From: Allacma fusca
Lineage: Eukaryota; Arthropoda; Collembola; Symphypleona; Sminthuridae
Length of the DNA: 64,000 bases
Assembly (NCBI GenBank): GCA_947179485.1
Contig: OX359246.1
Location: 2,232,001-2,296,000, forward strand
Direction of reading: 5' to 3'
Under the pieces are notes generated by a model that was not told the DNA's origin, did not search any database, and worked only from the letters and a program-made list of their open reading frames with translations. The position numbers and the translations under genes were made by a program. Positions 22,073-50,984 of this stretch are shown piece after piece; position 1 is the first letter of the stretch; every line of letters begins with the position of its first letter.

Positions 22073-22654
22073 TGTTACAGTTCTATCATCCGGGTATTGA
22101 TGTTGTGTGGGTAATAGACAATGTAGCCTAGGTTCGGGCGTTCCATTCCCCTGAATTATGGTTTCGATGTTGGTGAAACTCATGAATAAATGGAACTATT
22201 TATTCTGTTGTGTAAGTTCATTATTTAATTGATTGAGCCAATTTATTGTTCCTAGAACTGATACAATTTACACTGAACAATTAACATTTAACACAAAATA
22301 GAATTTGAAGTCTGAATCTCTTCTTCCTGAAATTCTCCGAATTTCATGTTGCCCCGCTTGCTACCTGTGGAGATCCATCCCGGAGGGAATGGACTCTAGG
22401 TGCGGCTCCTCTTGATGTTGCTTGCTTGAAGTCGAGATTAGAACTTGTACTTACTCTACGTGTCTTAATCTAAATCTAATCTTATCCTATTCTTAGTTTA
22501 TTGTTTATTAAATAATCTGAATCATTTCCTTTCCTTTTCTTATAATTATGTTTGGTCAGCGTTTGGCGTCACGTAGCCTCTGCTTACGACCTTCCAAACT
22601 ATTTGCTGACTTAGATTATGCTTATTCTAGTCTATTTATAATATATCCGTAACA
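22073..22654 (-). repeat. 3' LTR (sense on the minus strand)
   Basis: 582 bp, 580 identical to the 5' LTR. It keeps the late AATAAA in sense orientation (GAATAAATAG, near 22200) that is altered in the 5' copy. It ends TGTTACAG at 22073 on the plus strand next to the ATAT target duplication. Confidence 0.95.
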
Positions 22655-29600: not shown

Positions 29601-32600
29601 CAAGATGGTCAACGCCGTTGTATATGTGTGGTATGAGCAAAACTATCGTCCAGTTTGCTTCTGTGATTGTCGTTGCTAGTGCGAAGTGTACAGCTTCGCC
29701 TATTGCAATTTCCTCGGTGGGGTGAACATAGTCTTCCCCTTTGGTGATACTGTGAGGGTTGTTTTGCATCTGGCGTTGTAGGTTATTTATCTGGTCTTTT
29801 GCCAAGATACTTCGCCTGGTACGTGTATGTGTGTTTTTAAGTCCCAAAATTTGGATAACTTTGTTGATGAATTTCCCGTACTGTATCTCGTATTCCTTCC
29901 AAATTTCGTATTTGGTCTGTAGTGGTAACGGGATTGGTTTTGTTATTAAGTCCATTGCAACTGATTGTAAAGTTTTTGTTGTTAGATGGTAACCGTCACG
30001 TATTGCCTGTGACATTAGCCAAATAGCTTGCGGTAATTTCCGTTGGTCTCGTATCTTTTGTCGTCGTTCCTCTTCCTCTGAAGTGGGTTCAGGAGCATGT
30101 CGTCGCTCTCTCCCGTTTTCGGATTCTTCCGCGTCCACTTCTTTGCCTAAAGCTTGGTTCCATACTTTGGCTACAGAAGTTTCGTTGAGGTAATGAGCAT
30201 TACTTTGGATATCACCTGGTAATGCTATTAAGTTCGGAGATATTTCTGTTGCTGTTGGATCTTCCTTAAGAAAATCTTCTAACTCTTTTTCCTCACTGGC
30301 ATTGACGGGCATTATCATCCAGATGGGTCGTTGGTCCGGTAGTTGGGACTCAATGAGTACCCAGTCCTGTGGTATTTTGACTGTTTTTAATGGTCTGTTC
30401 CATCTCCTGACTGCGTCTAGGATTGAACTGGTATAGACTCCTACTATGACCATTCCCGTGGTACACATGCCTACGGCTCCTGCTACTCCTCGTACTACTC
30501 CATTCTGCCAGAGTCGGTGCGCTGTAGCTGACCGTACGGCTGAATTTCCGACCGGTGGGCACTCCCGTTGGCCGTAAGGGTCATAGTGTCCGATTTCCTC
30601 CGAGTCTTCCTTATTTTCAAAGTCTAGGCTGACATGGTCAAAGCCTGTTGGACTGGTTGGATTCTCGGTTTCCAATCGGGTCCACCACTGGTAATGTGAT
30701 GCCCGGGTTGTTGGATATGGTCCGTAGTGTCCCGTCAATTCCTTTCTCAAGTTGGATTGTCCTACAGCAGATGTAATTAAACCGAACATTAATAAAAACG
30801 ATAACCAACTGTTACCGAGGTAAGGTATGGGTCCTCCTCGTCTTCCTCCTCCTCCACGTCCCATTTCCGGTGTGTGAGGTGGCGTTTGAATTGATGAGGT
30901 TGGTTGTCGTGGTTCCTCGTCGTCACTAAGGATGACGGTTCCGTCCTGGGGTGAGTTGGCAAAATCAGCCAATGAAAGCTGGTGGTTATTAACAATTTCC
31001 GTTGTATCCGAAGTTATTGATGATTCTCGATCTTTGGGTCTTCTCTTTGATCTGATCACCTCAAAATCCTCTGAGCTACTGCTCTGGTCATTGTGTTGCT
31101 CGGCTATAGATAGCTCGGATGTTGCAACTTCGACATTTTGTCCTGGTGAGGGTGGCATTTCCGTTGCCATTCCTGTTGGGCTTGCAGTTTCTGGACCATT
31201 TCGTTTTTCCTGAGCGAGCAAACGCTCTAGCTCCCCGGATGTGGCTGTTGACGTTGGAATGTTCGTTGGTTCAAAGTGTGCTGGAGGTAATTCTCTAGTT
31301 TGAAGGTCTATCTTTGACTCAGCACATACCAAGTGAAAGTCGTTATCATTTCTCCACTTTATCCATTCCTGGCGGTGGCGTGCTAATTCTTTCATTAATC
31401 CTTCCTTTTGCTTTTTCGCGCTGTCTGCGTTGACGTTTTGTCTGGCAAGGTTGCGGATGATTTCCCCGAGATCTTTAATTCGGTTTACCATCTCCTCGTG
31501 CTTCCCTGCCTTCCTGGAGTCCTCTCCAATCTTTACGATGTTCGACTGCCATTTCGCCGGTGGTTGGGTTGGTACTGTGCTCTGTCCAAATAGCTCTAAG
31601 ATGGTCATCTGAGCCTCCTTCTTGACCTTCTTCTCCTTTTTCGCACGCTTCTTTGCATGATGTTCACATTCCTGTTGTACCACTGGTCCATTGTCGGTTG
31701 CAATTACTTGTCGTGCCCTTTTACATCCTTTTCTACTACAGGTTTGGATGGGTACTGTCTCTTCCTCTTCTGAATCTGAAGAGGATTCATTGGCGGTATC
31801 TCTGTCCGCTGTTGTAGCTGTGTCCGTGGCTGTTTCCTCGCTCCATGGTATCACTGCTACTGATGGTGGAGTCACTACAGGTACTTCCACTGGTCTTTCT
31901 CTTTGAGCGATGCAAACTGCACGCTGTGGTTTAGGTGGTTCACTATTAACCGGTATTGTTGGCGGTGGCATCTTTGTGACCGCGGTATAGCTTAGGGCTG
32001 GAGCTGCTATGGGTACTGTCAGTATTGACTCCCTCTCCATTCGGTCCTTGTAATCTCTCGCTGCTGGCGATAGAAATGGCGAAGGTGGTGGGGTTGCCTC
32101 TCTCCTGCTCCTTGACCGCGCTGGACTGTCATAGCGGCTCCTTGACCTGTCGTCCTCCCGTCGCTTCTTCCTCTCTGATGACGACTCCGTCTCCCGCTTC
32201 CTGGTCCTGCTGTCTTTAGAGCTGTGTCTTTCCCTTGAACTTTCTCTTGAGCTCCTGTGTTGCCTGCCCGAACTTTCTCCATTGGTGATGGCCCGCCCGC
32301 GGCCTCTCCCGGCTGGTACCATATGTGCCGAGTAGGCTGCGAATCTCGGAGGCTCCCTTCGTCGGTCCTCCAAGTTCCCTCGTCTCAGATCGGGTCCATA
32401 GTTGTCATCAATACGTCTACTGATTCTATGGGCTACGTCTTCGACCTGTTCTTCTTGTTGCGGTAACCATTCACTAATTTCGGGGATGTTGACTCGGGTT
32501 ACTCCACAAATAGGGTCGGCTCCCATCACTTTCCGAGATGAGCTTCGACTTGTCTTGCCTCGTTCATATTGAAGGCCTGGAGTAAATGCCCATGGATCAT

Positions 32601-33177
32601 GGTCATAATCTCCCCTTGGATTCTTTTGTCCGGGCACGTCCTTTTCTTGCCTATAATTTTGGACTAGCCATGGATCATCTGGCTGTCTATTACGTGTTCT
32701 ACAGATAGGGATCTGTCGTCGTATGGGAGTGGGATTAAATTCTTGTCCTTTAAAAAGGTAAACAAGATCATCTGGCGCTCGCTCGCCTCTATCTACTTCC
32801 AGTTGCTGCTCCGGAAAATTTATTGACCCGCAAAAGTGCGGTTCTCGTCGTAGTATACGATAATCTATTGTTAACTCTCGAGGTTTTCTGAGAGCTCCAA
32901 TTAGTACTGAATGGGTTACGATCTCTCGCCCATCTCGTCCTTGGACGATAATCCTATGGGGTAATTTCCCGTCTACTCTAAGAACAACTTCCAATCGTCC
33001 CATATCTGAGTTTGGTAAAATTTTTGCTTGTGGTATTTCCACTTCAGTTTGACTCACGTATTGGGTCCAATAACGTGGTCGATCGTCGTCGTCCCTGTCG
33101 ACGGCGGGTAGGGCGTCTTGGCGTGGAGTCTCGTTGGTTCGAGACCCGGATGCACGTGACCCTCTGTTCTCTGACAT
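26626..33177 (-). CDS. Giant accessory ORF, 2183 aa, with embedded envelope-like segment
   Basis: The largest ORF of the element, uninterrupted. Residues 1-480 include a beta-rich start and an Arg/Ser-rich tract around 300-365. At about 480-505 is CSRKGCKRARQV ... CEHH, a possible zinc site with a Lys-rich tail. From about 787 comes a signal-like hydrophobic stretch (SWLSFLLMFGLITSAVGQS). A second hydrophobic segment lies near 896-920 (GVAGAVGMCTTGMVIVGVY), with Asn-X-Ser/Thr sites, basic RERR and RTRR sites, and a further hydrophobic segment near 1277-1297. The C-terminal 880 residues are hydrophilic, with CEYCPLKHGH (about 1387), CPHCYQK (about 1655) and helical blocks. I recognise no family. 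The middle part could be an envelope-like membrane protein. Confidence 0.7.
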   Translation of the reverse strand: MSENRGSRASGSRTNETPRQDALPAVDRDDDDRPRYWTQYVSQTEVEIPQAKILPNSDMGRLEVVLRVDGKLPHRIIVQGRDGREIVTHSVLIGALRKPRELTIDYRILRREPHFCGSINFPEQQLEVDRGERAPDDLVYLFKGQEFNPTPIRRQIPICRTRNRQPDDPWLVQNYRQEKDVPGQKNPRGDYDHDPWAFTPGLQYERGKTSRSSSRKVMGADPICGVTRVNIPEISEWLPQQEEQVEDVAHRISRRIDDNYGPDLRRGNLEDRRREPPRFAAYSAHMVPAGRGRGRAITNGESSGRQHRSSRESSRERHSSKDSRTRKRETESSSERKKRREDDRSRSRYDSPARSRSRREATPPPSPFLSPAARDYKDRMERESILTVPIAAPALSYTAVTKMPPPTIPVNSEPPKPQRAVCIAQRERPVEVPVVTPPSVAVIPWSEETATDTATTADRDTANESSSDSEEEETVPIQTCSRKGCKRARQVIATDNGPVVQQECEHHAKKRAKKEKKVKKEAQMTILELFGQSTVPTQPPAKWQSNIVKIGEDSRKAGKHEEMVNRIKDLGEIIRNLARQNVNADSAKKQKEGLMKELARHRQEWIKWRNDNDFHLVCAESKIDLQTRELPPAHFEPTNIPTSTATSGELERLLAQEKRNGPETASPTGMATEMPPSPGQNVEVATSELSIAEQHNDQSSSSEDFEVIRSKRRPKDRESSITSDTTEIVNNHQLSLADFANSPQDGTVILSDDEEPRQPTSSIQTPPHTPEMGRGGGGRRGGPIPYLGNSWLSFLLMFGLITSAVGQSNLRKELTGHYGPYPTTRASHYQWWTRLETENPTSPTGFDHVSLDFENKEDSEEIGHYDPYGQRECPPVGNSAVRSATAHRLWQNGVVRGVAGAVGMCTTGMVIVGVYTSSILDAVRRWNRPLKTVKIPQDWVLIESQLPDQRPIWMIMPVNASEEKELEDFLKEDPTATEISPNLIALPGDIQSNAHYLNETSVAKVWNQALGKEVDAEESENGRERRHAPEPTSEEEERRQKIRDQRKLPQAIWLMSQAIRDGYHLTTKTLQSVAMDLITKPIPLPLQTKYEIWKEYEIQYGKFINKVIQILGLKNTHTRTRRSILAKDQINNLQRQMQNNPHSITKGEDYVHPTEEIAIGEAVHFALATTITEANWTIVLLIPHIYNGVDHLEEDELKGWETKAHANVSQTHPLFQRTSERAARERQRREAFVGPTNAWSPVSYSRQFLKQQLQLMLARIEEEEAHSSSGRPTGIIQQLVRFTLRMVIYIGTSVGMDFGGNQDPIRKGDPGRSHPRRTEGAEGPVLASEEEPAVPTEQAVEAQEEGAGTSSKVIKEEVLDDEEKPPSEHQVDSSSDNETDSKWVKTRCEYCPLKHGHKPPVRPKTKLAAHEAWQRQKDIPVQYIRRSRPELDRLYGRDSVPNCTFQYRGRQRGPEPEIERPRVRVYSPIRTVIFNETRDRRGSRSPSPVPSAITGQSIPPIEDKLKSRRARQRQRKVEFKEERQENPEAPAPEDPLAQPDSPDVRFVDLAHVSFYIGVRGWMVAPSWEDEDAEIVIFTNPHETQLYSQLDPVRLQVRKMVERANDPLDHSPPRFPDHVMEDISGDERHSRIEAQYSRRTNYFSNNMDTRERSTMCPHCYQKSTIDPERFPTYNISHRSTNSPEQNLVRWLNRMYRETFIERLNIHQRPTQPPQLRLEQLQRALSTLSEPRTDAHESNIEYAEHQAGIDYNNHGELIRERRALLYDAMDHPTDYRRLDPRERDLLILYGQSRRNVPMENTRLETMAGDMNISPGEMIPRLWTTLFNGQRGIDNHQVPTYLTCREHQGVMQGLTGTELRRLITQMWFDIGTQPTWREQEIWMNSFLLRGDAITGRGEKALQQLASIPIHMLSFQEFASMTERIITLYHQDAAIQEWRQFGAINQSSGSQPNPIDDIEEELGQWEDWIFAMKLAGEGQKPTTLYARKLKGGVATLRQPRKTGSFRDLNELVTIRIWQREHFHRIREQISNRGDGPSYKPYQLSPRNERRPGITPIHMIPSAIDRFQTPQWRSVVIDGRPDEPDLINLIRTLRGRTGIEIVFRDLGHDFIQEELRRDPVTQQRTSYLSITNPVEHRRLMDQLWERSSRARWDPEILSENRFAVISFRTLAEGEEETGTLRGPSEEDE

Positions 33178-33366: not shown

Positions 33367-33630
33367 TCATTCGCTTTCAGACTGATCCAAATCTTCTCGT
33401 CCTTTTTCGGGTACGAGTTGGGTATCGTCTACTTTCTCCGGTTTCTTCCGCGCTTTCTCCTTGAGATGTTTCGCCTGCTTCTGTAACTCCCGAATTTCCT
33501 CCTGAACTTGTTGAAGTTCCTGTTGGATTTGTACTCGTCGGGTTCTGAGGGTCGCTGAATGTTTCTCGGTGATCTGACGTATTTGTTCTAATTCTCTCAG
33601 GCCTTCTGGGATTGTCTTTCGTGAAGACAT
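33367..33630 (-). CDS. Coiled-coil mini-ORF 5 (87 aa)
   Basis: Long charged helix with heptads (GLRELEQIRQITEKHSATL, QQELQQVQEEIRELQKQAKH), a Lys-rich stretch and an acidic end (DLDQSESE). Same frame as mini-ORFs 1-4. Function unknown. Confidence 0.55.
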   Translation of the reverse strand: MSSRKTIPEGLRELEQIRQITEKHSATLRTRRVQIQQELQQVQEEIRELQKQAKHLKEKARKKPEKVDDTQLVPEKGREDLDQSESE

Positions 33631-34795
33631 CCAATGACCTGTCCTCTTCTGTAGAAAATTCTACAGGTGTATTAATGACTTCTGTATGCGTATCTACAGA
33701 GTCTTGTCCGTTTTTGTCTGCTAGAACTTCCTGGAACTCTTCGTCCTCTTCTGTAGAATTTTCTACAAGGACTTTTCGTTCCGTGGGTTGGTTGAATTGT
33801 TGGCTAGCCTGTTGGCTGCTCGAATTTGATTTTTCAGAGTATTCTTGACTCTCTCGGTTTGTTCTATCTCTCTCTCCACTCGTGCTATTGCTTCTCTGAT
33901 CCGACTGCCTTGCGCTTGTAGGCTTTGCAGTGTTTGTCTCTGAGCTTCGCTGGGTGGGCTTGGTGTTGTGTTCCACAAAGGGGGGCTCTTCCAAGGCCTT
34001 TTGCTCATCTGAGTGAAGAAATTGTGTCGAAATATCCGCCTCTACTGAGGGCCAAGGCACCTCAACTCGTGAAGTCGCTTCTGAAGGTCCTTGATTTCCT
34101 GTTTCAATTTGTCCAGGTCTCCCTCTCTCTGTCGTAGGCGGTTGATTAATTCTCGGTTCTGATCCCGAATTGTAAGAATCTGTCTCTCTATACTCACTGC
34201 TGTCGTCCACATCAAGTTCTGTTGGACTTATCCCTGAACTACTTAATTTCTTAAGTGTTTTAAAGTCACTTTCGTCAATGAGTGGTTGAGTTTCTTCCTC
34301 ACCTTCCGATGTTACACCTGCGCTGTTTTCAGCTGGTTTATTAAATCCGAAATATCTTCTTTGGCTTTCTGAGTTTCCTGGAGGGTCGCTTTGTGATCTC
34401 CCTCGAGTTGTTTCAGTTTGCTCAGTACTTCCTCCTGTTCCGAAATCTGATGTAAAATTCTTTGTTGGAGACGAATTTCGTTCTCCTTTGCCTTGATTAA
34501 TTGGGCTTGTAATCCCTGGATGATTAGGATTAATTCTCTCTTTGTATGTGTCATCAGTTACTCTGGTTGCACCTCGTCTTGTGATTTCTCCACTTGTGGG
34601 CAGAAACTTGACGTTTGAGGTTTTGTCTCTTGAATTAGCAGTTCTAAAGCTGCGATTCTCTGTTTGATGTACTCTTCCTGAGCTGCGTACTTCCAAATTT
34701 TTATTTGGACTAAATTCCTCTGTTGTTTCAATCCCCTTATCTCGTCCCTGATCTCCTCTAGGGTGTTCATTTACTTTCGAGCGAGTGAAATATGA
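33377..34795 (-). CDS. Open frame after integrase, about 470 codons, overlapping mini-ORFs
   Basis: Directly after the integrase UAA, the same frame is open with no stop until 33377; its first ATG is at 34696 (439 codons). The product is Ser/Thr/Glu/Arg/Asn/Gly-rich and looks disordered, like the tail of integrase before the stop. No domain is recognised. It overlaps five mini-ORFs in another frame along nearly its whole length. An open frame this long is not expected by chance, so it is either translated (as a readthrough tail of IN or alone) or kept open by the codon bias of the overlapping frame. Confidence 0.5.
   Translation of the reverse strand, partial: SYFTRSKVNEHPRGDQGRDKGIETTEEFSPNKNLEVRSSGRVHQTENRSFRTANSRDKTSNVKFLPTSGEITRRGATRVTDDTYKERINPNHPGITSPINQGKGERNSSPTKNFTSDFGTGGSTEQTETTRGRSQSDPPGNSESQRRYFGFNKPAENSAGVTSEGEEETQPLIDESDFKTLKKLSSSGISPTELDVDDSSEYRETDSYNSGSEPRINQPPTTERGRPGQIETGNQGPSEATSRVEVPWPSVEADISTQFLHSDEQKALEEPPFVEHNTKPTQRSSETNTAKPTSARQSDQRSNSTSGERDRTNRESQEYSEKSNSSSQQASQQFNQPTERKVLVENSTEEDEEFQEVLADKNGQDSVDTHTEVINTPVEFSTEEDRSLDVFTKDNPRRPERIRTNTSDHRETFSDPQNPTSTNPTGTSTSSGGNSGVTEAGETSQGESAEETGESRRYPTRTRKRTRRFGSV
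33763..34008 (-). CDS. Coiled-coil mini-ORF 4 (81 aa)
   Basis: A Pro-rich start (KSPPLWNTTPSPPSEA) precedes a helical heptad part (LQSLQAQGSRIREAIARVER and on). Same frame as its neighbours, 33 nt after mini-ORF 3. Function unknown. Confidence 0.5.
   Translation of the reverse strand: MSKRPWKSPPLWNTTPSPPSEAQRQTLQSLQAQGSRIREAIARVEREIEQTERVKNTLKNQIRAANRLANNSTNPRNEKSL
34042..34212 (-). CDS. Coiled-coil mini-ORF 3 (56 aa)
   Basis: A short ORF in the same frame as the other four, starting MWTTAVS and ending LRCLGPQ. Residues 8-50 are a clear heptad repeat (ELINRLRQREGDLDKLKQEI). About 100 nt separate it from mini-ORF 2, with three stops of the frame in between. Function unknown. Confidence 0.5.
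   Translation of the reverse strand: MWTTAVSIERQILTIRDQNRELINRLRQREGDLDKLKQEIKDLQKRLHELRCLGPQ
34312..34554 (-). CDS. Coiled-coil mini-ORF 2 (80 aa)
   Basis: Its ATG lies one codon after the stop of mini-ORF 1, so reinitiation by the same ribosome is possible. Nearly the whole product is a heptad-rich helix (LILIIQGLQAQLIKAKENEI, EVLSKLKQLEGDHKATL). Function unknown. Confidence 0.55.
   Translation of the reverse strand: MTHTKRELILIIQGLQAQLIKAKENEIRLQQRILHQISEQEEVLSKLKQLEGDHKATLQETQKAKEDISDLINQLKTAQV
34558..34770 (-). CDS. Coiled-coil mini-ORF 1 (70 aa)
   Basis: Starts 26 nt after the integrase stop. Residues 3-50 have heptad-like spacing of Leu/Ile with Glu, Arg, Lys and Gln between (LEEIRDEIRGLKQQ, YIKQRIAALELLIQ), giving a likely coiled coil; the tail is short and acidic. 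All five mini-ORFs share one frame, different from that of integrase. Function unknown. Confidence 0.55.
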   Translation of the reverse strand: MNTLEEIRDEIRGLKQQRNLVQIKIWKYAAQEEYIKQRIAALELLIQETKPQTSSFCPQVEKSQDEVQPE

Positions 34796-40013: not shown

Positions 40014-40640
40014 TCAAGTCCTGCACATCATGTTCTTTGGTCCTTTGACTTCATGAAATGAAAAAATTGACCTGACAAATTCTATGTCGGCCTTTTTCTC
40101 CCCGACATAGAGATGAGTATCTCTAGTCATTGGAACTGTTTGAAATCGGTCGCTCCGTATTTCATTATTCTTGTAATCTAACGTTATTCCGTAACGTGAT
40201 AAAAGATCTTCACCTATAATCATTCGTGGTTCTAGTGTTTCCATCACTAGACCTTTGAATAAAAGTTTTTCACCTTCAATCATCATTGTGAATTTGGTGA
40301 GGCAAATTGGTTTTACCAATTCCGCATTTGCTACTGCTACCCGCAGAGCGCTTGGAACTTCTTTTATTTCCGCACATCTTGGTACTAAGTTTCTTTGGAT
40401 ACAGGATCTTGTTGCTCCTGAATCTAGTAAAGCTGGTATCATCATACTGCATATTTGCACTTGTAAAGTTGACTTGTTGCCGTTTGATAAACGACATGGG
40501 TTGAGATCAATAATTTCTAATTCTTCGTCGTCTTTTGACTGACTTTCTACTCTAGTTGCTATAATTGCATTCATTCTTTCTTGGATATCTTCAGTTACTG
40601 GGGGTGCGTCCCCCTCTGTGAGTTTCCCGACGGATATGGG
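40014..40640 (-). CDS. Aspartic protease (PR)
   Basis: The frame is open from about 40640 and overlaps the Gag 3' end by roughly 45 nt in the -1 frame; the first ATG is at 40574. It carries the catalytic ALLDSGATRSC (Asp51 counting from that ATG) and a downstream MIIGEDLLSRYG, which is the flap/ILG-type part of a retropepsin. A GAGGGGGA run in the overlap could be a -1 slip site, as in many gypsy elements. The frame ends at a UGA (40014-40016). The same frame continues open into RT ten codons before the next ATG, so PR and RT are interrupted only by this codon. Confidence 0.85.
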   Translation of the reverse strand, partial: PISVGKLTEGDAPPVTEDIQERMNAIIATRVESQSKDDEELEIIDLNPCRLSNGNKSTLQVQICSMMIPALLDSGATRSCIQRNLVPRCAEIKEVPSALRVAVANAELVKPICLTKFTMMIEGEKLLFKGLVMETLEPRMIIGEDLLSRYGITLDYKNNEIRSDRFQTVPMTRDTHLYVGEKKADIEFVRSIFSFHEVKGPKNMMCRT

Positions 40641-42170
40641 CTAGACTGTCTTTTGTGTGGGCAATTCCTCCTCAGGTGGCCCATCTCTCCACACCCGAAA
40701 CATTTTATGTCGGTTTGGGTGGATTCTAGCGCCAATTGTCCCGGCATCGGCTGTGACTGCTCCTGGCGGTCTGATTGATTCCTCCAGGAGTTGTTTCTGT
40801 CATTGCTTTGGCTGTTCCGGTCCCTGGAGTTAGTTCTACTCCTGTTGTTATTGTTGTTGTACTGTTGGGGTCGCTGACCTCCTTGGTTATTGTTTGGCTG
40901 GTAACTCTGGTTCTGGTAACCTTGTGGGTTGGCCTGAATTTGTTGCATGCCAGGGTTGGCGTACCCTGCATTTTGTCCTGGACCGTATCCTTGAGATGGT
41001 CCATAACTTTGGGTGGGTGCATAACCTTGAAACGGTGCATAACCCTGTTGTGGTGGGTACCCTTGATTCGGATTAAACCCTTGAGGTGGCATAAAGCCTT
41101 GAGTTTGGTTAAATCCTTGGCTGTTATAACCGTTGTAGGATTGGTTGTATCCTTGGTTCATCTGTTGGTCGTTCCACTGACGATTTCCCTGGTTGTTAGG
41201 GTTGTTGTTATAGTATTGTCGGTTCGGACTTTGTCTAGATCCGAAATTTTGGTTCCGCTGCGGGTAACCTTGATTGTTGGAGTTGTTGCCATCATTTCTA
41301 TACTGAGGCCTACTCCTATCTTGATTATTGTAGAATCTCTCAGGTGTTGGAGATCTACCTCGGTTCCCATAATTTCTTCGGTCATCATACCCTTGGTTGT
41401 TACGTCCCCTGTCCGGGTAGTTGCTATTGTTGCTGTAACCTGGACTGGAATTTCGTGAGTTGTTGAAGTTTCCCTGACCTGGACTTCGTCCTCGTTGGTC
41501 ATTAGATCTAATTTCAGGTCTCCGATAGTCCTGTTGTTCTCTTACTGCAGCTACTTTGACGACGGTTGTTTCCGTTGGAGCTGCTTTCATTCCGGAGGTC
41601 AATTTCTCCAACATTTCTTGGACTTTGGCAAATCTGGTCTCAATAGATTCCGCGCCGTCCGTTTTTCGGTCTTCATCATACTGTTTTATTCCCTCTATGA
41701 AGTCTGCTACAGTTCCTGCTGTCCATCCTCGGCAGAAAACTATGTATTCGGATGTTACGAATGCCGTTGGGTAGACTGATGTGTCTATGATAGAGCCTAA
41801 AATCGGGTGCAATGTAACTAGTAACTTGATTCGGGTCTACCGATCTTTGAGCTAGTATCCTCCAAAAGGTAAATATGGGATTGGTACTCAGAACAATCTC
41901 TTCGTGTTCTGCTCTGGTAGCTGCAAATGCCTCAAAATCAGAGTCTCTAGTTGGTCTGAACCTTCGTTGTATTATACCGTCCCTTCTATTGAAATAAATT
42001 AGACGTCTCACTTGACCTGTCCAAGTTGCTTCGTTTTCTACCCCCTGATTTCTGAATCTGTCTTGTTTTCGGGCGATCTTAGAGTATTGTCTTACTGTTA
42101 TCCTGCTTGGTACTAACTCGTCTTCGGTTGCCTCGTTCTCGCTGGTGTATACTCTGCCACTTGGTCCTGT
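40595..42170 (-). CDS. Capsid/nucleocapsid part of Gag, with frame change
   Basis: From 42170 to about 41800 the frame of the upstream Gag ORF is open past the TAG, with capsid-like text such as PIFTFWRILAQ. Between about 41840 and 41680 coding character moves by +1 into the frame that ends at 40595. That frame shows EYIVFCRGWTAGTVADFIEGI, then a 250-residue prion-like domain rich in Asn, Gln, Gly and Tyr with QGY-type repeats, then a CCHC zinc knuckle (CFGCGEMGHLRRNC, CX2CX4HX4C) about 20 residues from the end. Nucleocapsid binds the genomic RNA. Whether the +1 change is programmed or damage cannot be decided from one copy. Confidence 0.75.
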
Positions 42171-45100
42171 CTATATATTTACTCCGTATTGTAAGTCATC
42201 AAGCCAATTGACTGTACCTTGACTTGTGGTTGGAGTTGTTGTTACTCGAGATGGTCCTGCTACTGCTGAATTTGGTCTGACGGGGACAGCTGGAGCTGTC
42301 GGTGTCGTTGGTCGGTTCGCTGACCTGGTTATAAACCTTCCAGTTGGTCTAACTGGTACTGCAAAAGTCGTTGCTGCGCGTGTCGTAGATGCAGGTGTTG
42401 CTGTCCGTGACCTTAGGGTGTCACCTTGGACGTATGACTCGTTGCTTCTAGATGTTTGTTCCGAAGGTGGTGGTTGGGGTGCTGTTACAAGCTCTCCACC
42501 TTCTATGATGGTCCTGTCGTTGTTGGTTGCTCGTTGCAGGATGTCTCGACCTCGTAAACTGTGGCGGTGTATACCTGTGCGTCCTATCGGTAGGCTGTTA
42601 TATAACGAGCCTCTCGGTGATTGATAGACAGTAAATCTGTCTTGGGGTCTAAATGCCTGATAGTAAGTACCTGTGTCAGAATTTCTGATGGTATTTGCGA
42701 TAGTTAATGACGGATTCTGTTCTCTTAGTTGTCTCCCTACTTGCACCAACGTTCTTAAAGCTGTTTCACTAACGTCAAGTGGCGGTGCTCGCAACGCGTG
42801 CACGGGGGGATGTACGTAGATTCGACCTCCCGGCGACTGGTAAACTCGGTGTACCAGTTGCTCGTTGTTGTTTGCCTGGGTGGAATCTGTGTTGACGTAC
42901 AACCTTGTTGTCGTTAAATCCCTCTTAACGTTAGCCTGTGATGTACTACCAATTTGGGTGGTCTCGACCTCCTCAGTTGGTGTCTCCAATTCGTCTTGGG
43001 TGGGTTGTGGCCTAAATTGCAGGTTAGGTTGAGTTGGTCTGTTCCTTGGCGTATTTTCCGTTGAAACCTGTCTATTCTGACTGGTTGGTGAGATGTGTAC
43101 TGGGTTAATTTGCTGTGTTATCTCGTGAGAGTTGCTGTGTCGGCTTGACTGCCCTCTTTCACCTGTTGCAGGTGTTGAGCGACAGGAATTACTGGACCTC
43201 GGGGTCACTCTCGGTTGTGCCGTAGAGCTCCCTGCTGGTGTCTGATTACCTGTCTGGACTGTAGGTGATGTCGTGGGTGCTCTAGGGCTACCCTTCTGTA
43301 TGGCTGTCTCGCAACGGCTGTTGCTTGGTCTCTCACGTATCGTAATTCCCTGTGGACTGGTCCTGGGATTTAAGTTGCTGTTTTCCTCAGCACTATTTAC
43401 CCTGTAATGTCTTCTCACCGATTTCTGGAAAAGCTGTGACCTAGGTGATGAGTAATCTACCGGGTTACTATCCGTTACCTGGTTACTTGGTCTGAGATGG
43501 TCACGATCGGAGTTACTCGACTTCCGATTTCGAGGGGTTGTTAAACCTGCTTGAAGTGTCGCTGAGGCTATTGCCTGGGCTATAGCCTTGTTGATTGAGC
43601 TTGAGCTGGTATTTAAGCTTTCGGGTGAAATCCTTCGTGACGTAACGGGTTGTACTGTAGGTTCGCCTGAGATGGTCCTTAGCGTAGATCTAGATGCTGG
43701 TTCTAATAAACCCGTAACCGGATTCCGTGTTACTGGTGGGTTTCTTCGGTCGTACCTAAGGTACCTGCTAATGATGTCGTCAGCGCTGGAGTCGATTACG
43801 CTTTGTTGGGTGGTCCCGTTGTTATTTGAATCTTGTTCTGGACCTGGCCTACTCTCGTCGCTGACTCGCCTTTCTTGTCGTTGTTGACCAAATTCTAGAT
43901 TTTCACTAAGTCTTCCGGATTGTATCACGGTCGTGTACCTAGGTGTATCGTTGAAGAAAATCTGGCTATCCTGGTGTGCCTGATGACTTCTCAACGACAA
44001 TACCCGGTGCTCTAAAAGGTTTCGGATGACGTCTGTGGGGATGAAAATGTTGTCCCTGACGTTCCGACCGTACTCGAAGGCACGTGTACGTAACACTTCC
44101 CTTTCTTCCCTATTCGGATCTCTGTTATTGTCCCGTCTGTGGGTGACTTCAGCTAATCTAAGGAAAAAATGTGTCCACTGGACTGTACCTGTATAAAGAT
44201 TTTGAGCTAACCTGTGATACACCTCTATCAGTTGTCCTTCCAATCCTCGGACTACCAGAAAATTTTCCACTGAGTTCCGTTGGAAGCCTGCGGTGGTCAC
44301 TAGTTGTTGAAACGATCCCGCTGGTACTATCACACCTGTACCTGTCACTAACTGTACGAAATTTTCTTCCACCCTTTGGATGTTATCTTGCCCTTCTCTG
44401 ATCGGTGGTAATTGATCCTCGACTGGGCCTTCCTGTTCTGTAGACTCAGACACCCGGCTGAGTGTCCTTTGAAAGCCTATATCTCCTCTATTGGAAAATC
44501 CTGGAGATGGTCTTGATAGGAACCTATCTCGCACAAGTTGTTGTATGTCTGGTTGTTGAGAAACTGTAGTATTCGACTGTGAAGCCTTACGGTGGTCGCT
44601 GATGCTTAAGTTTGATAACTGCTGATTTAATTGAGTAGTGACCTGGTCACGATCACTCCCTATACTGTTATTGGTACGTGGTACTCCTGTTGGTGAGTCA
44701 CCTTGTTCACTCTGTTCGGTTGACTCGTCCGATTGAGTTATTGCTAAATTGTCCCTAAATGATGAGTGTGTACTGAGATTCCCTTGCTGGATAATCTCTG
44801 GTGTACTTGTTGCTATAGCTATTGGTCTGTTGGAATCCTCCAAATCATCCAATTCCGTTGAGCTTTGCTGATTAACCTGTTGTTCAGTTTGTCCAGTAGC
44901 TTTGCTGCACATTCCTTGACTTTGTACATCCTGTTGGGATTGTATGCTCGTGTCTTGAGGAATGTCTCCGTTGCCAACTGGGTTTGTCAGGTTGCTGACA
45001 ACCACATTGTTGGGTGATTCATTGGTCACATCTTCCATCTCACTTTCTGGAGTTGCGAATCCTTGCTCGCCCTCCCCTACGCTTGTATGGTTGCTTCCGG

Positions 45101-45809
45101 GATCCGTGAGAATTTCAAATGATGACATGGCAGCGCTACTAGTTGGTCTTTCCTCAGGTTGATTGAATTGCGACAAGATTTCCTTGATCGTGGGGTCAGC
45201 ATCGTGACTGACAAAAACCATGTCTCCTCTAGCATTTAGCATGAATTCGCCTGTGGCCTCAACCTCCTGGTCTTGTTGGACCTGTTGGCCCTCCAGGTTG
45301 GTTACCTCGAGGTCGCGTAATTCTCGTTGCATAGCTAGTCTATGGAGATTTTGTCCTTGCACCACCTTTGTTTTTGAAAACTTTGGTGTTTGTGCTGTCG
45401 ATACTGTTGGTGTTCGTTTAGGACTGGTTGTCGTACCTGTTACAGGTGTTGACACCGTGTCCAAGAACACATCCATGCTTTCATCATTATTGTCAGGATT
45501 ATCTCCGTGCCCCGTGGCCTGCGAGCCCGATGGACTTTGTGCAGATAATGCCAAGGTTGTACTGCCGGATTCTTCCATGACTGTAGATGTCGAAGCTGAA
45601 GACGTTGAAGAGAGGTCTACACCTGCCGTTGCTGTATTAGCTTTGGCTTTCGCTGCTTTCCTCTCCTCTTTCCTACGGGCGAGGATTTCCTCCAAGCCTG
45701 TTTCATTCTGTGGTACTGGTCCTGCCGATCGCGTAGTCCTTCGAGATGGTATTGAAGGTGCAGGTGGTGGTTCCCTTCTTGATGGATGTTGGTTCTTTTC
45801 GGGTTCCAT
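42171..45809 (-). CDS. Long N-terminal Gag region, 1212 codons
   Basis: This is the first long ORF after the leader. Most of it is low-complexity (Ser, Thr, Gln, Asn, Arg, Pro-rich) and predicted to be disordered. A more ordered, hydrophobic and helix-like block lies at about residues 480-610 (around FVQLVTGTGVIVPAGSF and HFFLRLAEVTHRR). It ends at an amber stop (TAG at 42171-42173), after which the same frame stays open to 41676 and runs into the capsid-like region. I recognise no domain. Its place before capsid and nucleocapsid argues that it is the N-terminal part of Gag. The length is far beyond a normal matrix domain. Confidence 0.7.
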   Translation of the reverse strand: MEPEKNQHPSRREPPPAPSIPSRRTTRSAGPVPQNETGLEEILARRKEERKAAKAKANTATAGVDLSSTSSASTSTVMEESGSTTLALSAQSPSGSQATGHGDNPDNNDESMDVFLDTVSTPVTGTTTSPKRTPTVSTAQTPKFSKTKVVQGQNLHRLAMQRELRDLEVTNLEGQQVQQDQEVEATGEFMLNARGDMVFVSHDADPTIKEILSQFNQPEERPTSSAAMSSFEILTDPGSNHTSVGEGEQGFATPESEMEDVTNESPNNVVVSNLTNPVGNGDIPQDTSIQSQQDVQSQGMCSKATGQTEQQVNQQSSTELDDLEDSNRPIAIATSTPEIIQQGNLSTHSSFRDNLAITQSDESTEQSEQGDSPTGVPRTNNSIGSDRDQVTTQLNQQLSNLSISDHRKASQSNTTVSQQPDIQQLVRDRFLSRPSPGFSNRGDIGFQRTLSRVSESTEQEGPVEDQLPPIREGQDNIQRVEENFVQLVTGTGVIVPAGSFQQLVTTAGFQRNSVENFLVVRGLEGQLIEVYHRLAQNLYTGTVQWTHFFLRLAEVTHRRDNNRDPNREEREVLRTRAFEYGRNVRDNIFIPTDVIRNLLEHRVLSLRSHQAHQDSQIFFNDTPRYTTVIQSGRLSENLEFGQQRQERRVSDESRPGPEQDSNNNGTTQQSVIDSSADDIISRYLRYDRRNPPVTRNPVTGLLEPASRSTLRTISGEPTVQPVTSRRISPESLNTSSSSINKAIAQAIASATLQAGLTTPRNRKSSNSDRDHLRPSNQVTDSNPVDYSSPRSQLFQKSVRRHYRVNSAEENSNLNPRTSPQGITIRERPSNSRCETAIQKGSPRAPTTSPTVQTGNQTPAGSSTAQPRVTPRSSNSCRSTPATGERGQSSRHSNSHEITQQINPVHISPTSQNRQVSTENTPRNRPTQPNLQFRPQPTQDELETPTEEVETTQIGSTSQANVKRDLTTTRLYVNTDSTQANNNEQLVHRVYQSPGGRIYVHPPVHALRAPPLDVSETALRTLVQVGRQLREQNPSLTIANTIRNSDTGTYYQAFRPQDRFTVYQSPRGSLYNSLPIGRTGIHRHSLRGRDILQRATNNDRTIIEGGELVTAPQPPPSEQTSRSNESYVQGDTLRSRTATPASTTRAATTFAVPVRPTGRFITRSANRPTTPTAPAVPVRPNSAVAGPSRVTTTPTTSQGTVNWLDDLQYGVNI

Positions 45810-46189
45810 ACCTGTAAACGTCCTAACTTTTTCTGGATGGGCTGAAAAATGCTAAGGCGTTTCGTAGAGTTTGGTTTTATGAATTGTTTTGACGGTTGTG
45901 AGAGTTCTTTTGTCAATTCCAATCCTGAAAACCTTCTTAAAACTTATGCCAAATTTCAACTTAAACCGTTTCCTAAAATTTTGCCTTGTATGTCTATGCT
46001 ATTTTAATCCTAGTTTTAAAACTTAATTGTGCCAATTGGTGATGATAACCTGGAAAAGAAATTTTCTGTGCTTATAACCTAAGTGTTCAAACCCTGAACA
46101 TCCCTAACCTTAGCTGTGAATTGTCTTAAACTTTAATCTCTGTAATCCTAACGTTTCCAATGAGTACCTCCTGGTGTTACCACCTGAAT
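45810..46189 (-). other. Leader next to the first ATG
   Basis: Sequence between the TAAGTTTAAG repeat and the Gag ATG. Short alternative ORF starts overlap the Gag start in another frame and do not look coding. Nothing else is recognised. Confidence 0.4.
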
Positions 46190-46410
46190 TTCCTTAAAAC
46201 CTAAACTTTTCTAGTCTTAATTCCGCTAAAACTTATCTTCCTTAAACTTATCCCTTCCTTAAACCCTAACTGCTCTTAAACTTAATTCCCTTAAAACTTA
46301 AACTCCTTTAAACTTAAACTTCTCTAAACTTAGTCTCCTTAACCTTATCGTCCTTAAAACTTAACGCTCTTAAACTTACTCACCTTAAAACTTAACCTTC
46401 TTAAAATAAC
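46190..46410 (-). repeat. Degenerate TAAGTTTAAG repeat in the leader
   Basis: Over about 220 bp the plus strand repeats cttaaactta, ttaaaactta and related words roughly a dozen times at 12-20 nt spacing (TAAGTTTAAG in sense). It sits between the hairpin array and the first ORF. Confidence 0.6.
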
Positions 46411-46466
46411 TTATTTGCAATGGCTAGTTGCGTCTAACTCCTTAAACTATCAGTCTTATTGTCAAT

Positions 46467-48226
46467 CAACACTCCTCACATTCGGGCCGGTGTTGCCTAA
46501 ATTCCCTAAATACTCCTGTAATGATTCCTAGAATTAATAAGGACTGTATTCCTCGCTACTAATTACCCTTCTGCCCCAAAGGATATGTTTCGCGTCCTAA
46601 TTCGTACCTAAGAACTTCCTTGCACCGATCCTACCATCAGCAAGGCTTGTATCTGTTGTTAGACAGCAAAAACTGAAAGCACCAGAATTTACTGAATTCC
46701 TATCCCTATAACCAACTCTCAAAAGCCATGAGCCTGTGGTTTCTTATGCCAAATCTCTCTACTCTAGCAAAATCCTTCGAGAATGGCTAATCTTATGATG
46801 CACTCAAAACCATGAGTCATCTATGGAAGAAGTAATAAATATGAAAGTCCCTATGTATGGCCATAGCTGGAAACCGCATACATAGATTTTAAAGTGAACA
46901 TCCGTGCTTTGGAGTGTCCCCTGTTATCCTATCCACTAAACCATGGACCTCCTTACTAGTAATAGTCATTGCTGTTACCTATCCGCTAGCTTGGGCACCT
47001 TACAAACATATACCTATATCGGTGCGTCAATCATAGCCTCTCCGATTACCTCTAGTAGGTCACAGGCTTATCGGTACTTTTGTCGGCACTCCATCCGATC
47101 ACCTCCGTGCTTGGAATGACTCGAACCCTACTAAACCATAAGGTTCCTCCTAATCTTCCTAGCCTCTCGGATTCTACGTGTACTAAAACTTATATACGAC
47201 AATGATTCCGCTCACATTTCGGCCCTTGAATCCCTAAACTACGTAGATGAGAATTTTCTTATATGTATGCTTATGTACTATGCCAATGTGTCCACGCTCA
47301 ATGTACCTCGGCCCTTTGGACTAAATTTTGTTCAAACCTTACTTAAACTGTCCTAATCACCTCGGTGCTCATATTCGGCCCTCCCGATCTAATTTTGTTC
47401 TCCTTACATACTATAATCTTTAGATGGTCTGATCTACCTATGCTCTCTAACTGAGCTGTATAGGTTTTGATTTGCAAACTGACTAACTGAAATCTGATAT
47501 GCTCCGTGCTCACATTCGGCCTTCCGGATTAACTTTAAAGTCCTAATATTTGCCAAAACCATGACAACTTATGTCCTAATTACCCAGCGCTCAACCGGCA
47601 CTTCTGGTGGAAATGGAAAGATGGAAGAAGAAAAGATGTTTGTGAAAAGTTTATGATAGGTCCTATTGTTACCCGTGTAAACCTACACATCAGGTAAAGA
47701 AAGTAATTTTCAGCGAAAGGGTTTTAATTGGGTTTTGCCCCCTACCAATGGGGCTCTTAATTACGTAATTTGGAGATAAAGAATCTAAAGACATTTGCGC
47801 TCAATCCCGGCCCTTCAAATGTGCTTATATTAGAAGGAGAAAGAGATGTAGAGAAAGAAGAGAGTGAAAAATATTTTTTTGAGTTATTTACTGAAAGATA
47901 GATCATATTTTTGCTTTAAACTAAGCTTGGAAAGTGAATTTTGAGAGTCTTGTATTAATAAAAAAATGTCCTAATTAATTGAAAGATTTTAATTGTGTTT
48001 TGGGTTCCTATCCCCTAGCCTGGGGTTTCCCAAAACTTAGAAAGGTAATTTGAAGAATTAAAAGAATTTCAACGCTCAAAAACGGCCCTTTTGAAATTAG
48101 GAACTTAAACTTACGAAGAGAAAGATTACTATTTTACTGCGCACAAGAACGGCACTTCAGCCGGAATAGTTCCCTTTACAATACGAACACTGTTTATGCC
48201 TACGCTCAAAACCCGGCCCTTTAGGC
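46467..48226 (-). promoter_or_regulatory. Array of ten hairpins with a conserved GGGCCG...TGAGCG core
   Basis: Ten sites share, in sense, stem-AAGGGCCG-N(2-8)-TGAGCG-stem'. Positions with stem length: 46467-46495 (6 bp), 47204-47232 (5), 47290-47321 (5), 47362-47387 (4), 47503-47528 (4), 47584-47607 (4), 47791-47822 (7), 48065-48098 (8), 48137-48160 (3), 48198-48226 (5). Stem sequences differ at every site yet stay complementary (ACATTTG/CAAATGT, AATTTCAA/TTGAAATT, GTCCA/TGGAC, GCCTA/TAGGC), which is covariation. The core keeps GGCC, a self-complementary tetramer, at most sites. Packaging or dimerisation of the genomic RNA is my inference from the leader position. Confidence 0.7.
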
Positions 48227-48784
48227 GTCTAAAAAGATAGAAGAAGACTTATTTTACTGGAAGAAGCTAATTTTGGTGAAAATTTGTTATGCACGTACAC
48301 CTACTATGTACTCTGAAAACCACAAAATACATATACATATATGCGCAATTTTCTAATTTGAACATATGATTTGTCTCTAAACTCTGGTTAATTACTCCTG
48401 AATATTAGCTACGCCTCGTAACTACATTACAAAATTAATATGCTCCTAAACATGAAATTCATGAACCTTAAAGAAAATAGTATTACCTTATTGGACGTCC
48501 TCTTCCCCTAATTTTCCGGTTGGAAAGAGTCCCAATTTCACTAGCACTTAAAATAATATTTCTGGCCACAAAATAGTTCTTTTTCTAGTGCCGCACTAGG
48601 ACTTCTGAACTGTTATTTGAATCCGCGCGTGATGATAATGGCCAAATTTTCTTTCTTGAGGTAACATTGTTGCATGTTATGACTGCCTTTCACGAGAATT
48701 TTCGGGTGGCCCTGGAGAGAAATGAGATATCTTCTCCTTATCGAGCCCCATACTTCCATCCCATGAATTTTGTTTGACTCACGA

Positions 48785-48866
48785 CCTTACTTGCTACAAA
48801 GTTCGGTCTTATGTCACAGGGTCATCCGCAGGTCCCCGACCTACGGATCCTCCGGGTCCTTACCAA
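48785..48866 (-). promoter_or_regulatory. Leader start: splice-donor-like sites and a strong hairpin
   Basis: In sense, TTG|GTAAGG (donor at 48863/48864) and CAA|GTAAGG (48790/48791) match the donor consensus just after the 5' LTR. Between them, 48824-48848 folds into an 11-bp hairpin, ATCCGTAGGTC-GGG-GACCTGCGGAT. Its only non-Watson-Crick pair is a G-U in the minus-strand RNA (C-A on the other strand), which favours a role in the sense transcript. The layout resembles retroviral leaders, where a stem-loop and the major splice donor are adjacent. Confidence 0.55.
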
Positions 48867-48896
48867 ATAAAACCCGAAGGCCTGGCAGAAACATCA
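48865..48896 (-). promoter_or_regulatory. Primer-binding region, primer not recognised
   Basis: In sense the bases after the 5' LTR read TGATGTTTCTGCCAGGCC. They do not begin with the TGG that would pair with a tRNA CCA end. The nearest TGG is about 31 nt downstream (TGGTAAGGACCCGG). The primer could be an internal tRNA segment, a tRNA lacking a match here, or self-priming. Confidence 0.4.
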
Positions 48897-49478
48897 TGTT
48901 ACAGTTCTATCACCCGGGTATTGATGTTGTGTGGGTAATAGACAATGTAGCCTAGGTTCGGGCGTTCCATTCCCCTGAATTATGGTTTCGATGTTGGTGA
49001 AACTCATGAATAAATGGAACTATTGATTCTGTTGTGTAAGTTCATTATTTAATTGATTGAGCCAATTTATTGTTCCTAGAACTGATACAATTTACACTGA
49101 ACAATTAACATTTAACACAAAATAGAATTTGAAGTCTGAATCTCTTCTTCCTGAAATTCTCCGAATTTCATGTTGCCCCGCTTGCTACCTGTGGAGATCC
49201 ATCCCGGAGGGAATGGACTCTAGGTGCGGCTCCTCTTGATGTTGCTTGCTTGAAGTCGAGATTAGAACTTGTACTTACTCTACGTGTCTTAATCTAAATC
49301 TAATCTTATCCTATTCTTAGTTTATTGTTTATTAAATAATCTGAATCATTTCCTTTCCTTTTCTTATAATTATGTTTGGTCAGCGTTTGGCGTCACGTAG
49401 CCTCTGCTTACGACCTTCCAAACTATTTGCTGACTTAGATTATGCTTATTCTAGTCTATTTATAATATATCCGTAACA
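48897..49478 (-). repeat. 5' LTR (sense on the minus strand)
   Basis: 582 bp. In sense it starts TGTTACGGATATATTATAAATAG and ends CTGTAACA. The TATA-like TATAAATAG is only about 15 nt from the LTR start, so if used, U3 would be unusually short. AATAAA occurs in the R/U5 part as TTTAATAAACAATAAAC. Compared with the 3' LTR it has two substitutions, at 48913 and 49025; the second turns a late AATAAA into AATCAA. Confidence 0.95.
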
Positions 49479-49482
49479 ATAT

Positions 49483-50984
49483 CTACCATTGAAATTGCAT
49501 TCTATTCACAGAAAGGTATTCCCCCAAATCGAATTTGAAAGACATTTCCACAGTTTTGTGTTAAGGTATTTCAAACTCTGTCAATGGCCAGGTTTCGGAC
49601 ATTAGGTCTGCTGACATCTGACAAAATTTAATTCCCATCTCCATTTTACAAACCGCGAGGTATCCTTGTAATGAGTATACATAAATGTTGATGTGTTATT
49701 AAATAAGAAGGGTTATTAACTATGTTATGAAATATTAACGAAATTAAATATTAACAGTGTATAAATTGATTACTCACAATCAGATCAAACGCTAAAATTT
49801 ATTGTTATGTCAGTTCAAGTTCAAGGTTCAATCTCCTAGTTCCTAGTCCATTTAGGAATACGAATTTATTCTTAAGGATTTTTTTCCGCCGTCCATTCAT
49901 CTATAAATTTACTTACATCAATCATTAATAATTTGAATAATAAAATTGGATGCTGCAAATGTTTAGCACACACTTCTAAACAGGCGTGGATTTATGGGGT
50001 GGTCTATGAAGCAAATTTTTTATTTTCCTGGCCACAATAACTTTGTATAAGTAAGTATAATGACAGTATTGTCTCCTTAATATTATAGAAACTGCTCTTT
50101 AAAGATTAATGTTATTAATTTAGAAATCTCTGGCAATTCCAGATAGAAATACTTTGCAAGACATACGCACATGTATTGGCAATATGTAAAGTTATTTTTT
50201 TCTGTTTTTTGTGATTTAAATAAGGGCCAATAATTGCAATAGCTACAAAATCATCTTGCAAATGCTACTAGCAAAAAAGGGTAAATGCGGCTCAAACGTA
50301 TGTCGAGATCGTATATAACCTTACATTCAATGGATATTTGAACTTCCAATCCTTGGCTTTCACGAGGGAAATTTTAAAAAAGTTCACCCATATTTTCTCG
50401 ATTTTTGCACGGATATTTTGCCAGATTAAAAATTTTGGCCTGCCCATACAAATTTTCAAATGCCCCAATTTAGTAAATTCAACGGTTTCCGGGAATAATA
50501 TGAAAAGCACAAAGCCTTGTCATTCAAAATTTTACCAAAGCCAGAAAATTGGCCCAGACGGGTAAGACCAGATTTATTACAACACTCAAAATATCAATCT
50601 TGCATAAAGTCCCTAATTGTATTCAAAGTAACTAATCAAAATGGGGTGCATATATATTTCAGTAATTGAATATAAATTTGGAAAAAACCACTTAAAAACC
50701 CAGAAACAGCCACAATCGACTGGAAATTATAAGCATGGCGTTGGCAATAAAATTTCAAGAAGAAATAAAAGTCGTCAAGTCGGGGAAATGATAGGATCTG
50801 TTATGATGCCATAACAAGGCTTATTTGCTAAAAACATTAAAAATTGAAAATTTTACTGAGCTCCGCCAAAACCGCTGAACAGAACGGCGGTTAAATGGGA
50901 TTTTTTCCAAGCCGTAATAAAATAAATTGCCTTGTCTATGAATTTGAGAGAGACTGACCGTCGACAAGGCTTGTTGTACAAAGG
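49483..50984. other. Intergenic, upstream of the zinc-finger gene
   Basis: AT-rich. No coding ORF or repeat with visible ends. The region presumably contains the promoter of the gene starting at 50985, but no TATA or other element can be assigned. Confidence 0.4.

Follow-up and report, generated by a model that had tools for sequence, protein, structure and literature searches.

The question raised by this locus is why a long retrotransposon would carry, in the non-coding leader ahead of its coding regions, one short motif repeated ten times with each repeat framed by a different pair of complementary arms. The locus comes from the springtail Allacma fusca (a genome of 392.7 Mb in 91 contigs), and the window that we analyzed is the 64,000-nt stretch C8:2232001-2296000. 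It holds a 27.4-kb element on the minus strand (22073-49478) that has a pair of long terminal repeats (LTRs), is flanked on either side by the 4-bp target duplication ATAT and encodes Pfam domains in the Ty3 order RVP, RVT_1, RT_RNaseH and rve (protease, reverse transcriptase (RT), RNase H and integrase). By its LTR pair, target duplication and domain order, this is a Ty3/gypsy LTR retrotransposon. An initial annotation of the window had called ten hairpins in the leader of this element. Our analysis confirms that observation, which proves to be stronger than first described, and finds that the pairing is conserved among copies of the element. We classify the hairpins as an RNA array in the leader of a Ty3-type element, with a function that is putative and unproven.

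Ten different stems around one core

All ten leader sites (s1 to s10) lie on the minus strand (the sense strand of the element) and read AAGGGCCG-N2-8-TGAGCG framed by a stem that differs from site to site. The shared core described by the initial annotation can be recognized at all ten sites, but the exact AAGGGCCG with TGAGCG is present in only five of them, with the other five changed at one or more core positions. Contiguous Watson-Crick stems measure 5, 3, 8, 7, 4, 4, 4, 5, 5 and 6 bp for s1 to s10, for a total of 51 pairs, and the perfect 8 bp at 48065-48098 and 7 bp at 47791-47822 are exactly as first reported. When arms from different sites were combined (n=90), the mismatched flanks paired over a mean of 0.33 bp with a maximum of 2, and none of 200,000 permutations reached 51 pairs. 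Moving the register by 1-4 nt left only 0-6 stem pairs. Unrelated exact matches to the core, at least 121 of which occur in at least 120 IMG/VR loci, have a mean stem of 0.30 bp, with stems of at least 3 bp in 2 of the 121 matches listed.

The sites also stand out by several other measures. With the core alone in a leave-one-out scheme, nine of the ten sites score above all non-sites on either strand of the window, while s10 falls below threshold. A covariance model trained on the same ten sites scores them at 24.5-40.4 bits within the 64 kb, where the next match has 13.0 bits (E 0.46). The covariation score of the ten sites obtained with a counting tool is 0.528 versus 0.160 in shuffles, a value that favours itself as the structure was derived from the sequences being scored. 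Over the whole leader, stems of at least 6 bp are not enriched (26 versus 25.3 in shuffles), and stems of at least 5 bp with loops of 16-22 nt are enriched (31 versus a mean of 20 and a maximum of 30 in 100 shuffles). Two simpler origins are ruled out: a simple repeat, as the stems differ and covary, and a mobile micro-insertion with direct target duplications, as the flanks are inverted repeats.

Pairing across copies of the element

With one mismatch or none, the motif is found at 298 genomic places, versus 18 for a reversed control pattern. From the 100 of these places that were listed we fetched 40 regions, approximately one for each cluster; about 15 clusters in that list are not among them. 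Sites within these regions were called from the core alone, save for a tie-break between overlapping calls; s10 lies below this calling threshold, and one weak stemless call in region L132 is counted. There are 8-11 modules in 37 of the 40 regions and 4, 6 and 4 in L134, L144 and L161, with all modules of a region on one strand in 40 of 40 cases. R1 yields 373 matches over 122 kb at E<=0.01 (300 of them listed). The regions form two families by identity over the longest leader block, a window-like family A (23 regions, 88-97%) and a family B (17 regions, 74-80%). The coding part of one family B copy was compared with that of the window: aligned blocks of ORF1 (ORF, open reading frame) are about 42-54% identical, the protease is 70% identical and the RT ORF is 88% identical over its first 475 residues; the array has been kept despite this divergence of ORF1.

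Orthologous places were defined by shared flanks, and at these places stems are seen to change on both sides. For example, s9 reads GATTC/GAATC in 11 of 37 copies and GATTG/CAATC in 21 of 37 with unchanged flanks, and s6 changes from TCCG/CGGA to TCTG/CAGA, with one copy having the G.U intermediate TTAATCTG with CGGAGCAT. The s5 stem CCAG/CTGG is replaced by CCCG/CGGG in 14 copies, which our script grouped separately although their flanks are near-identical, ACATTTG/CAAATGT of s4 becomes ACCTTTG/CAAAGGT or ACCTGTG/CACAGGT (two copies each, in one tandem array), and GTCCA/TGGAC of s8 becomes GTCTC/GGGAC. The inner pair of the module is mostly constant, except at s10, where all 13 readable copies of family A have C-G and all 10 of family B have G-C, which is a compensated change inside the core.

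These changes were counted over distinct stem types in ten site groups. Double changes keep a Watson-Crick pair in 38 cases, give G.U in 2 and break the pair in 11 (6 A.C, 5 other), with the 19 double changes of group 0 being less certain since this group merges related sites of both families. Single changes give 14 Watson-Crick pairs, 21 G.U, 9 A.C and 20 other breaks, 15 of the latter from the s7 group, where the count of the majority stem ran through G.U pairs to a depth of 8. Among the 199 distinct modules of the genome-wide fetched set, window included, the three core-adjacent pairs are all Watson-Crick or G.U in 191, and the remaining 8 lack such a pair at some of these three positions.

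An alignment of 37 fetched arrays plus the window (31.3 effective sequences) covers 45 stem pairs. Paired bases occupy 98.4% of stem cells versus 23-42% when the pairs are slid by 1-4 columns, and both sides have changed in 12 stem pairs versus 0-4 slid pairs. Compensation is found in 8 of the 13 stem pairs that have a variable column versus 134 of 3810 background pairs (p 3e-9, by a test that is not R-scape). The background consists of column pairs outside the stems, spaced by 17-40 nt, whose letters are complementary in the window; since these have the same phylogeny as the stem pairs, they constitute a fair internal control. A large share of the changes coincides with the A/B family split, which makes the number of independent events smaller than that of cells. 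This split also dominates a raw ranking by covariation, in which 475 of 63,746 column pairs exceed 0.1, including 8 of 44 stem pairs at ranks 2-424. Variable columns make up 24% of the core halves, 23% of the stems, 62% of the loops and 38% of the rest of the leader.

With compensation at orthologous places well above background, the array is a conserved structural RNA. The initial annotation had argued for selection on structure plus motif as opposed to a simple repeat, and the fact that stems stay paired in independent copies supports this, with an RNA shape that appears to be preserved by such selection. It had also named in advance two findings that would speak against it, stems left unpaired in other copies and the motif present elsewhere in the genome, outside the element, without hairpins. 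The first is at odds with the pairing in the 37 copies and the window, and for the second no isolated motif was found among the 40 fetched regions, the smallest of which has 4 sites.

Compensation could also be mimicked in an array that has no function at all, if template switching by reverse transcriptase repairs imperfect palindromes. A double change could then be a single event, and the window stems, which are almost devoid of G.U (1 of 52 contiguous pairs), are in keeping with such repair. However, it leaves unexplained the conserved core halves, the G.U intermediate of s6 and the compensated change in the inner helix of s10. We thus disfavour template-switch repair as highly improbable.

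Fold, strand and putative reader of the array

RNAalifold applied to the ten aligned sites alone gives an outer stem plus an inner helix of G-C, C-G, a bulged A, C-G and G.U. From the outside inward, a module consists of the site-specific stem, a mismatch between the first and last letters of the core, a 3-nt purine-rich bulge (AGG, AGU or AAG), an inner helix in which a G-C/C-G step is followed by one bulged A and a closing C-G and perhaps G.U pair, and a variable loop. The mismatch is A.G in 130 of the 199 distinct modules, A.A in 43, G.A in 24 and something else in 2, and is never G.G. A known RNA family is ruled out, as no Rfam family reaches its gathering score; a search of 45800-49500 up to E 5 returned only FTX_2, at 18.8 bits versus a cut-off of 48.

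The core also contains GGCC, and the initial annotation had suggested that loops could kiss through this self-complementary segment. GGCC is indeed inside the core at 8 of the 10 window sites, but s2 and s5 read GTGCC, and genome-wide it occurs near the core start in 170 of the 199 distinct modules, leaving 29 without it. Kissing through GGCC is therefore rejected as a common principle, as is a dimer hairpin of the retroviral type in which every copy is self-complementary.

At single internal non-Watson-Crick positions, the distinct modules have 17 G.U, no A.C and 2 other combinations. This points to the sense transcript and hence the genomic RNA, and an array that is read as sense RNA is favoured. 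This same observation bears on the idea that the motif is read in double-stranded DNA, in the manner of the gypsy insulator, a Ty3/gypsy-element insulator that is similar in location and copy number (PMC2374998, extract). Conserved pairing of stems that are free in sequence, and positions that accept G.U and not A.C, would be pointless in double-stranded DNA; by eye the modules are also unlike the Su(Hw) consensus quoted in that extract, although no search for it was made. An array that acts at the DNA level is disfavoured as very improbable, and sites that function solely as double-stranded DNA are ruled out, for pairing is conserved where a gypsy-type insulator would have a motif independent of pairing.

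What reads the modules is a matter of inference. Based on what is established for RNA-protein recognition, free stems together with fixed bulges and closing pairs imply a reader, protein or RNA, that recognizes bulges on a helix. Downstream of the array is a nucleocapsid-bearing ORF with one CCHC knuckle and an N/Q-rich stretch (37% N+Q across residues 91-360), which makes selection by Gag the first choice and export of unspliced RNA the second. We consider the chance to be about even that each module is a protein site, that the row gives avidity and that Gag of the element itself is the most likely reader, selecting genomic RNA. In this mechanism a protein would recognize the bulges while being indifferent to the sequence of the helix, with one candidate site per module, and about ten modules in a row would provide avidity. 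Gag might read the array through its CCHC-containing, N/Q-rich nucleocapsid part, leading to selection of full-length genomic RNA, and assembly or condensation of Gag could then be nucleated on RNA that bears the array. A donor-like GGTAAGG is located at 48864-48858, just after the primer-binding region and slightly upstream of the stem-loop at 48824-48848, and is present in 8 of 8 loci printed, from both families. If used with an acceptor near gag, this donor would confine the array to unspliced RNA. Binding of Gag to the array is itself an inference.

Several observations weigh against a sense RNA array that is selected by Gag. A.C does occur in broader counts, with 41.5 G.U versus 16 A.C among weighted orthologue cells and 18 versus 11 at the fourth stem pair, and at the sixth and seventh positions, which lie beyond many stems, A.C is the commoner of the two (25 versus 22 and 42 versus 29 G.U). 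Consensus energy slightly favours the antisense strand (-6.40 versus -5.95 for sense). Nearest-neighbour folding in a 75-nt context gives mean stem probabilities of 0.05-0.17 for sense and 0.22-0.31 for antisense; given such low values, protein or contacts outside the energy model may hold the modules. Five strong cores lack any stem, one each in L129, L145, L159, L160 and L164. The gag region of the window copy (40595-45809, minus strand) contains an in-frame stop and a change of frame, which interrupt it, whereas the matching region of at least one other copy is spanned by a single 2188-aa frame. As for splicing, weight-based scoring places GGTAAGG (48863) only sixth among donor-like sites and the strongest one at 46383, downstream of the array, and the best 16 sites include no acceptor near gag.

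A multivalent scaffold goes a step further than simple selection by Gag. The prion-like, N/Q-rich Gag may condense on genomic RNA, so that selection occurs by phase separation with about ten RNA stickers that are kept across families and adjusted along with Gag. We view this as a possibility that is rather unlikely. U at core position 4, present in 23 distinct modules, is clustered within copies (0 of 2000 permutations, with relatedness not controlled). As a separate observation, core alleles recur across sites, with 12 of 117 distinct cores found at two or more site groups, and identical cores at different sites account for 29 of 1538 comparisons within a copy versus 583 of 60,458 between copies (relatedness again not controlled). 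It is as if loops had been exchanged or adjusted together.

A nuclear-export array is slightly less probable still. The modules would be bound by an element-encoded accessory protein or by an export factor of the host, allowing the 27-kb unspliced RNA to leave the nucleus. Multivalent structured RNA is typical of export elements such as Rev with the Rev response element (RRE) and the element of Mason-Pfizer virus, and the retrotransposon has large additional ORFs with no Pfam matches. There is also a precedent in Cer1, a Ty3/gypsy-related element that, according to the available extract of its description, requires its own CERV protein to export genomic RNA (PMC10309623). However, the 2183-aa ORF of the window element has only a mild excess of RS/SR dipeptides (38 versus 32 expected).

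Two additional roles appear improbable to a similar degree. The row may control translation by blocking or guiding ribosomes across the 3-kb leader through shunting, internal entry or repression, and the 37 ATGs of the leader and the end of the array about 660 nt ahead of the first gag-region ATG are compatible with this. Known ribosome-entry elements, on the other hand, are unlike a repeated module that resembles a protein site and has weak stems, and conservation sits in the core halves and pairs. Alternatively, the modules may be sites for a host RNA-binding protein that the element recruits or through which the host recognizes the element. Nothing specific favours this reading beyond fixed bulges and free stems that imply some protein reader, and the fact that most of the fetched copies, in either family, retain 8-11 sites argues for a benefit to the element.

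Element context and comparison with known systems

Coordinates of the hairpins and of the main parts of the element are collected in Table 1. The leader, in which the array is embedded, is non-coding. The first gag-region ORF had no homologue at E<=0.001 among 7993 candidates scored. Relatives of the RT are 28-44% identical, and among the best 120 listed most are without a name, with named ones mainly from arachnids and other arthropods plus frog and fungal records; no protein relatives of the RT were found in the IMG/VR and GTDB genomes searched. Adjoining the element is a zinc-finger ORF whose nearest protein is from the springtail Allacma fusca (44% over 79%). After the integrase there are three minus-strand ORFs of 2183, 439 and 246 aa (26626-33177, 33377-34696 and 25315-26055) with no Pfam matches, the last of which has signal-like and membrane-like stretches as judged by eye. 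The stem-loop that closely follows the primer-binding region recurs in 31 copies, and in 15 of these its stem has two mismatched positions.

Table 1. Hairpins of the leader array and principal parts of the retrotransposon in the window
Feature	Coordinates	Strand	Details
Hairpin s1	48198-48226	-	5-bp stem GCCTA/TAGGC
Hairpin s2	48137-48160	-	3-bp stem CTG/CAG; variant core GTGCCG...TGTGCG
Hairpin s3	48065-48098	-	8-bp stem AATTTCAA/TTGAAATT
Hairpin s4	47791-47822	-	7-bp stem ACATTTG/CAAATGT; compensated forms in other copies
Hairpin s5	47584-47607	-	4-bp stem CCAG/CTGG
Hairpin s6	47503-47528	-	4-bp stem TCCG/CGGA
Hairpin s7	47362-47387	-	4-bp stem TCGG/CCGA
Hairpin s8	47290-47321	-	5-bp stem GTCCA/TGGAC
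Hairpin s9	47204-47232	-	5-bp stem GATTC/GAATC
Hairpin s10	46467-46495	-	6-bp stem CAACAC/GTGTTG
5' LTR	48897-49478	-	582 bp; 99.66% identical to 3' LTR
3' LTR	22073-22654	-	partner of 5' LTR
Leader	45810-48896	-	3087 nt; 37 ATGs; no upstream ORF >49 aa
Stem-loop just after primer-binding region	48824-48848	-	ATCCGTAGGTC/GACCTGCGGAT
First gag-region ORF, downstream of array	42171-45809	-	1212 aa; no Pfam match
CCHC zinc-knuckle ORF, candidate reader of array	40595-41812	-	N/Q/G/Y-rich stretch; zf-CCHC 5.5e-05

The leader has additional repeated features. The downstream flanks of s3 and s4 are homologous (score 28.5 versus a shuffled maximum of 19), which indicates that duplication gave rise to at least part of the array and that the stems diverged afterwards while remaining paired. 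A second type of repeated hairpin, CCCC...GGGG on the minus strand, follows s3 at 47997-48036 and s4 at 47727-47763, and the former occurs in 23 copies and is largely paired among the printed forms. Two decayed or variant modules with partial cores and ATCGG...CCGAT arms were spotted by eye at 47072-47102 and 47013-47044 (minus strand), and their sequences recur in 35 and 33 copies, respectively. A separate 9-bp hairpin, CTATGTATG/CATACATAG at 46851-46885 on the minus strand, is found in 24 family A copies, 17 of them identical, and in two family B copies with a similar loop and a different but largely paired stem. Between s10 and gag (46175-46406) there is an array of TTAAGTTTTAAGG-like units with a period of about 16 nt, and ATTAGGAC has five exact occurrences elsewhere in the leader.

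One group of copies is in an unusual setting. L153/L173/L154/L177 (C8:35457000-35476899) consist of a 7317-bp tandem unit with three array matches at that spacing. Within the unit, LTR-like sequence and a leader array of family B are linked to a non-LTR element carrying endonuclease, RT and RNase H, and the 3' end of this non-LTR element directly meets the next LTR-like stretch. A comparison of this non-LTR element with proteins of the window element gave no significant match.

The array is of interest as an experimental system in that each copy carries about ten natural replicates, and each of dozens of copies carries its own test of pairing. The recognition rule, in which core halves and pairing are fixed and the sequence of the stem is free, can be read directly and is testable with short RNAs.

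How, then, does the array compare with systems already described? Retroviral leaders have packaging and dimerization stem-loops, a few different ones, between the primer-binding region and gag. The array has the same position, with another stem-loop near the primer-binding region, but consists of about ten copies of one module in which a palindrome is not universal. The RRE and the constitutive transport element, which serve unspliced RNA, are one branched and one symmetrical structure, respectively; the likeness is in a multivalent RNA structure, whereas the array is a row of independent hairpins.

A closer likeness is to the dispersed packaging signals of MS2 and parechovirus, where, in the extract available, many stem-loops with one motif are read by the capsid protein (PMC6281560). 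The array shares with these signals many stem-loops, a shared motif and variable stems. It differs from them in being clustered in one retroelement leader and in having a fixed part that takes in bulges along with loop-side letters. The Drosophila gypsy insulator, with 12 Su(Hw) sites in the 5' untranslated region, resembles the array as a set of repeated sites of similar number in the same region of a Ty3/gypsy element; its sites are DNA, and covarying stems are not part of its description in the extract (PMC2374998). A literature search found no mention of such a hairpin array in the openings of the abstracts returned. In yeast Ty1 and Ty3, RNA is selected in a manner dependent on Gag and nucleocapsid, and the cis packaging signals are, in the words of the extract, 'not clearly defined' (PMC4974528). 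The array, unlike these, presents precisely delimited candidate signals.
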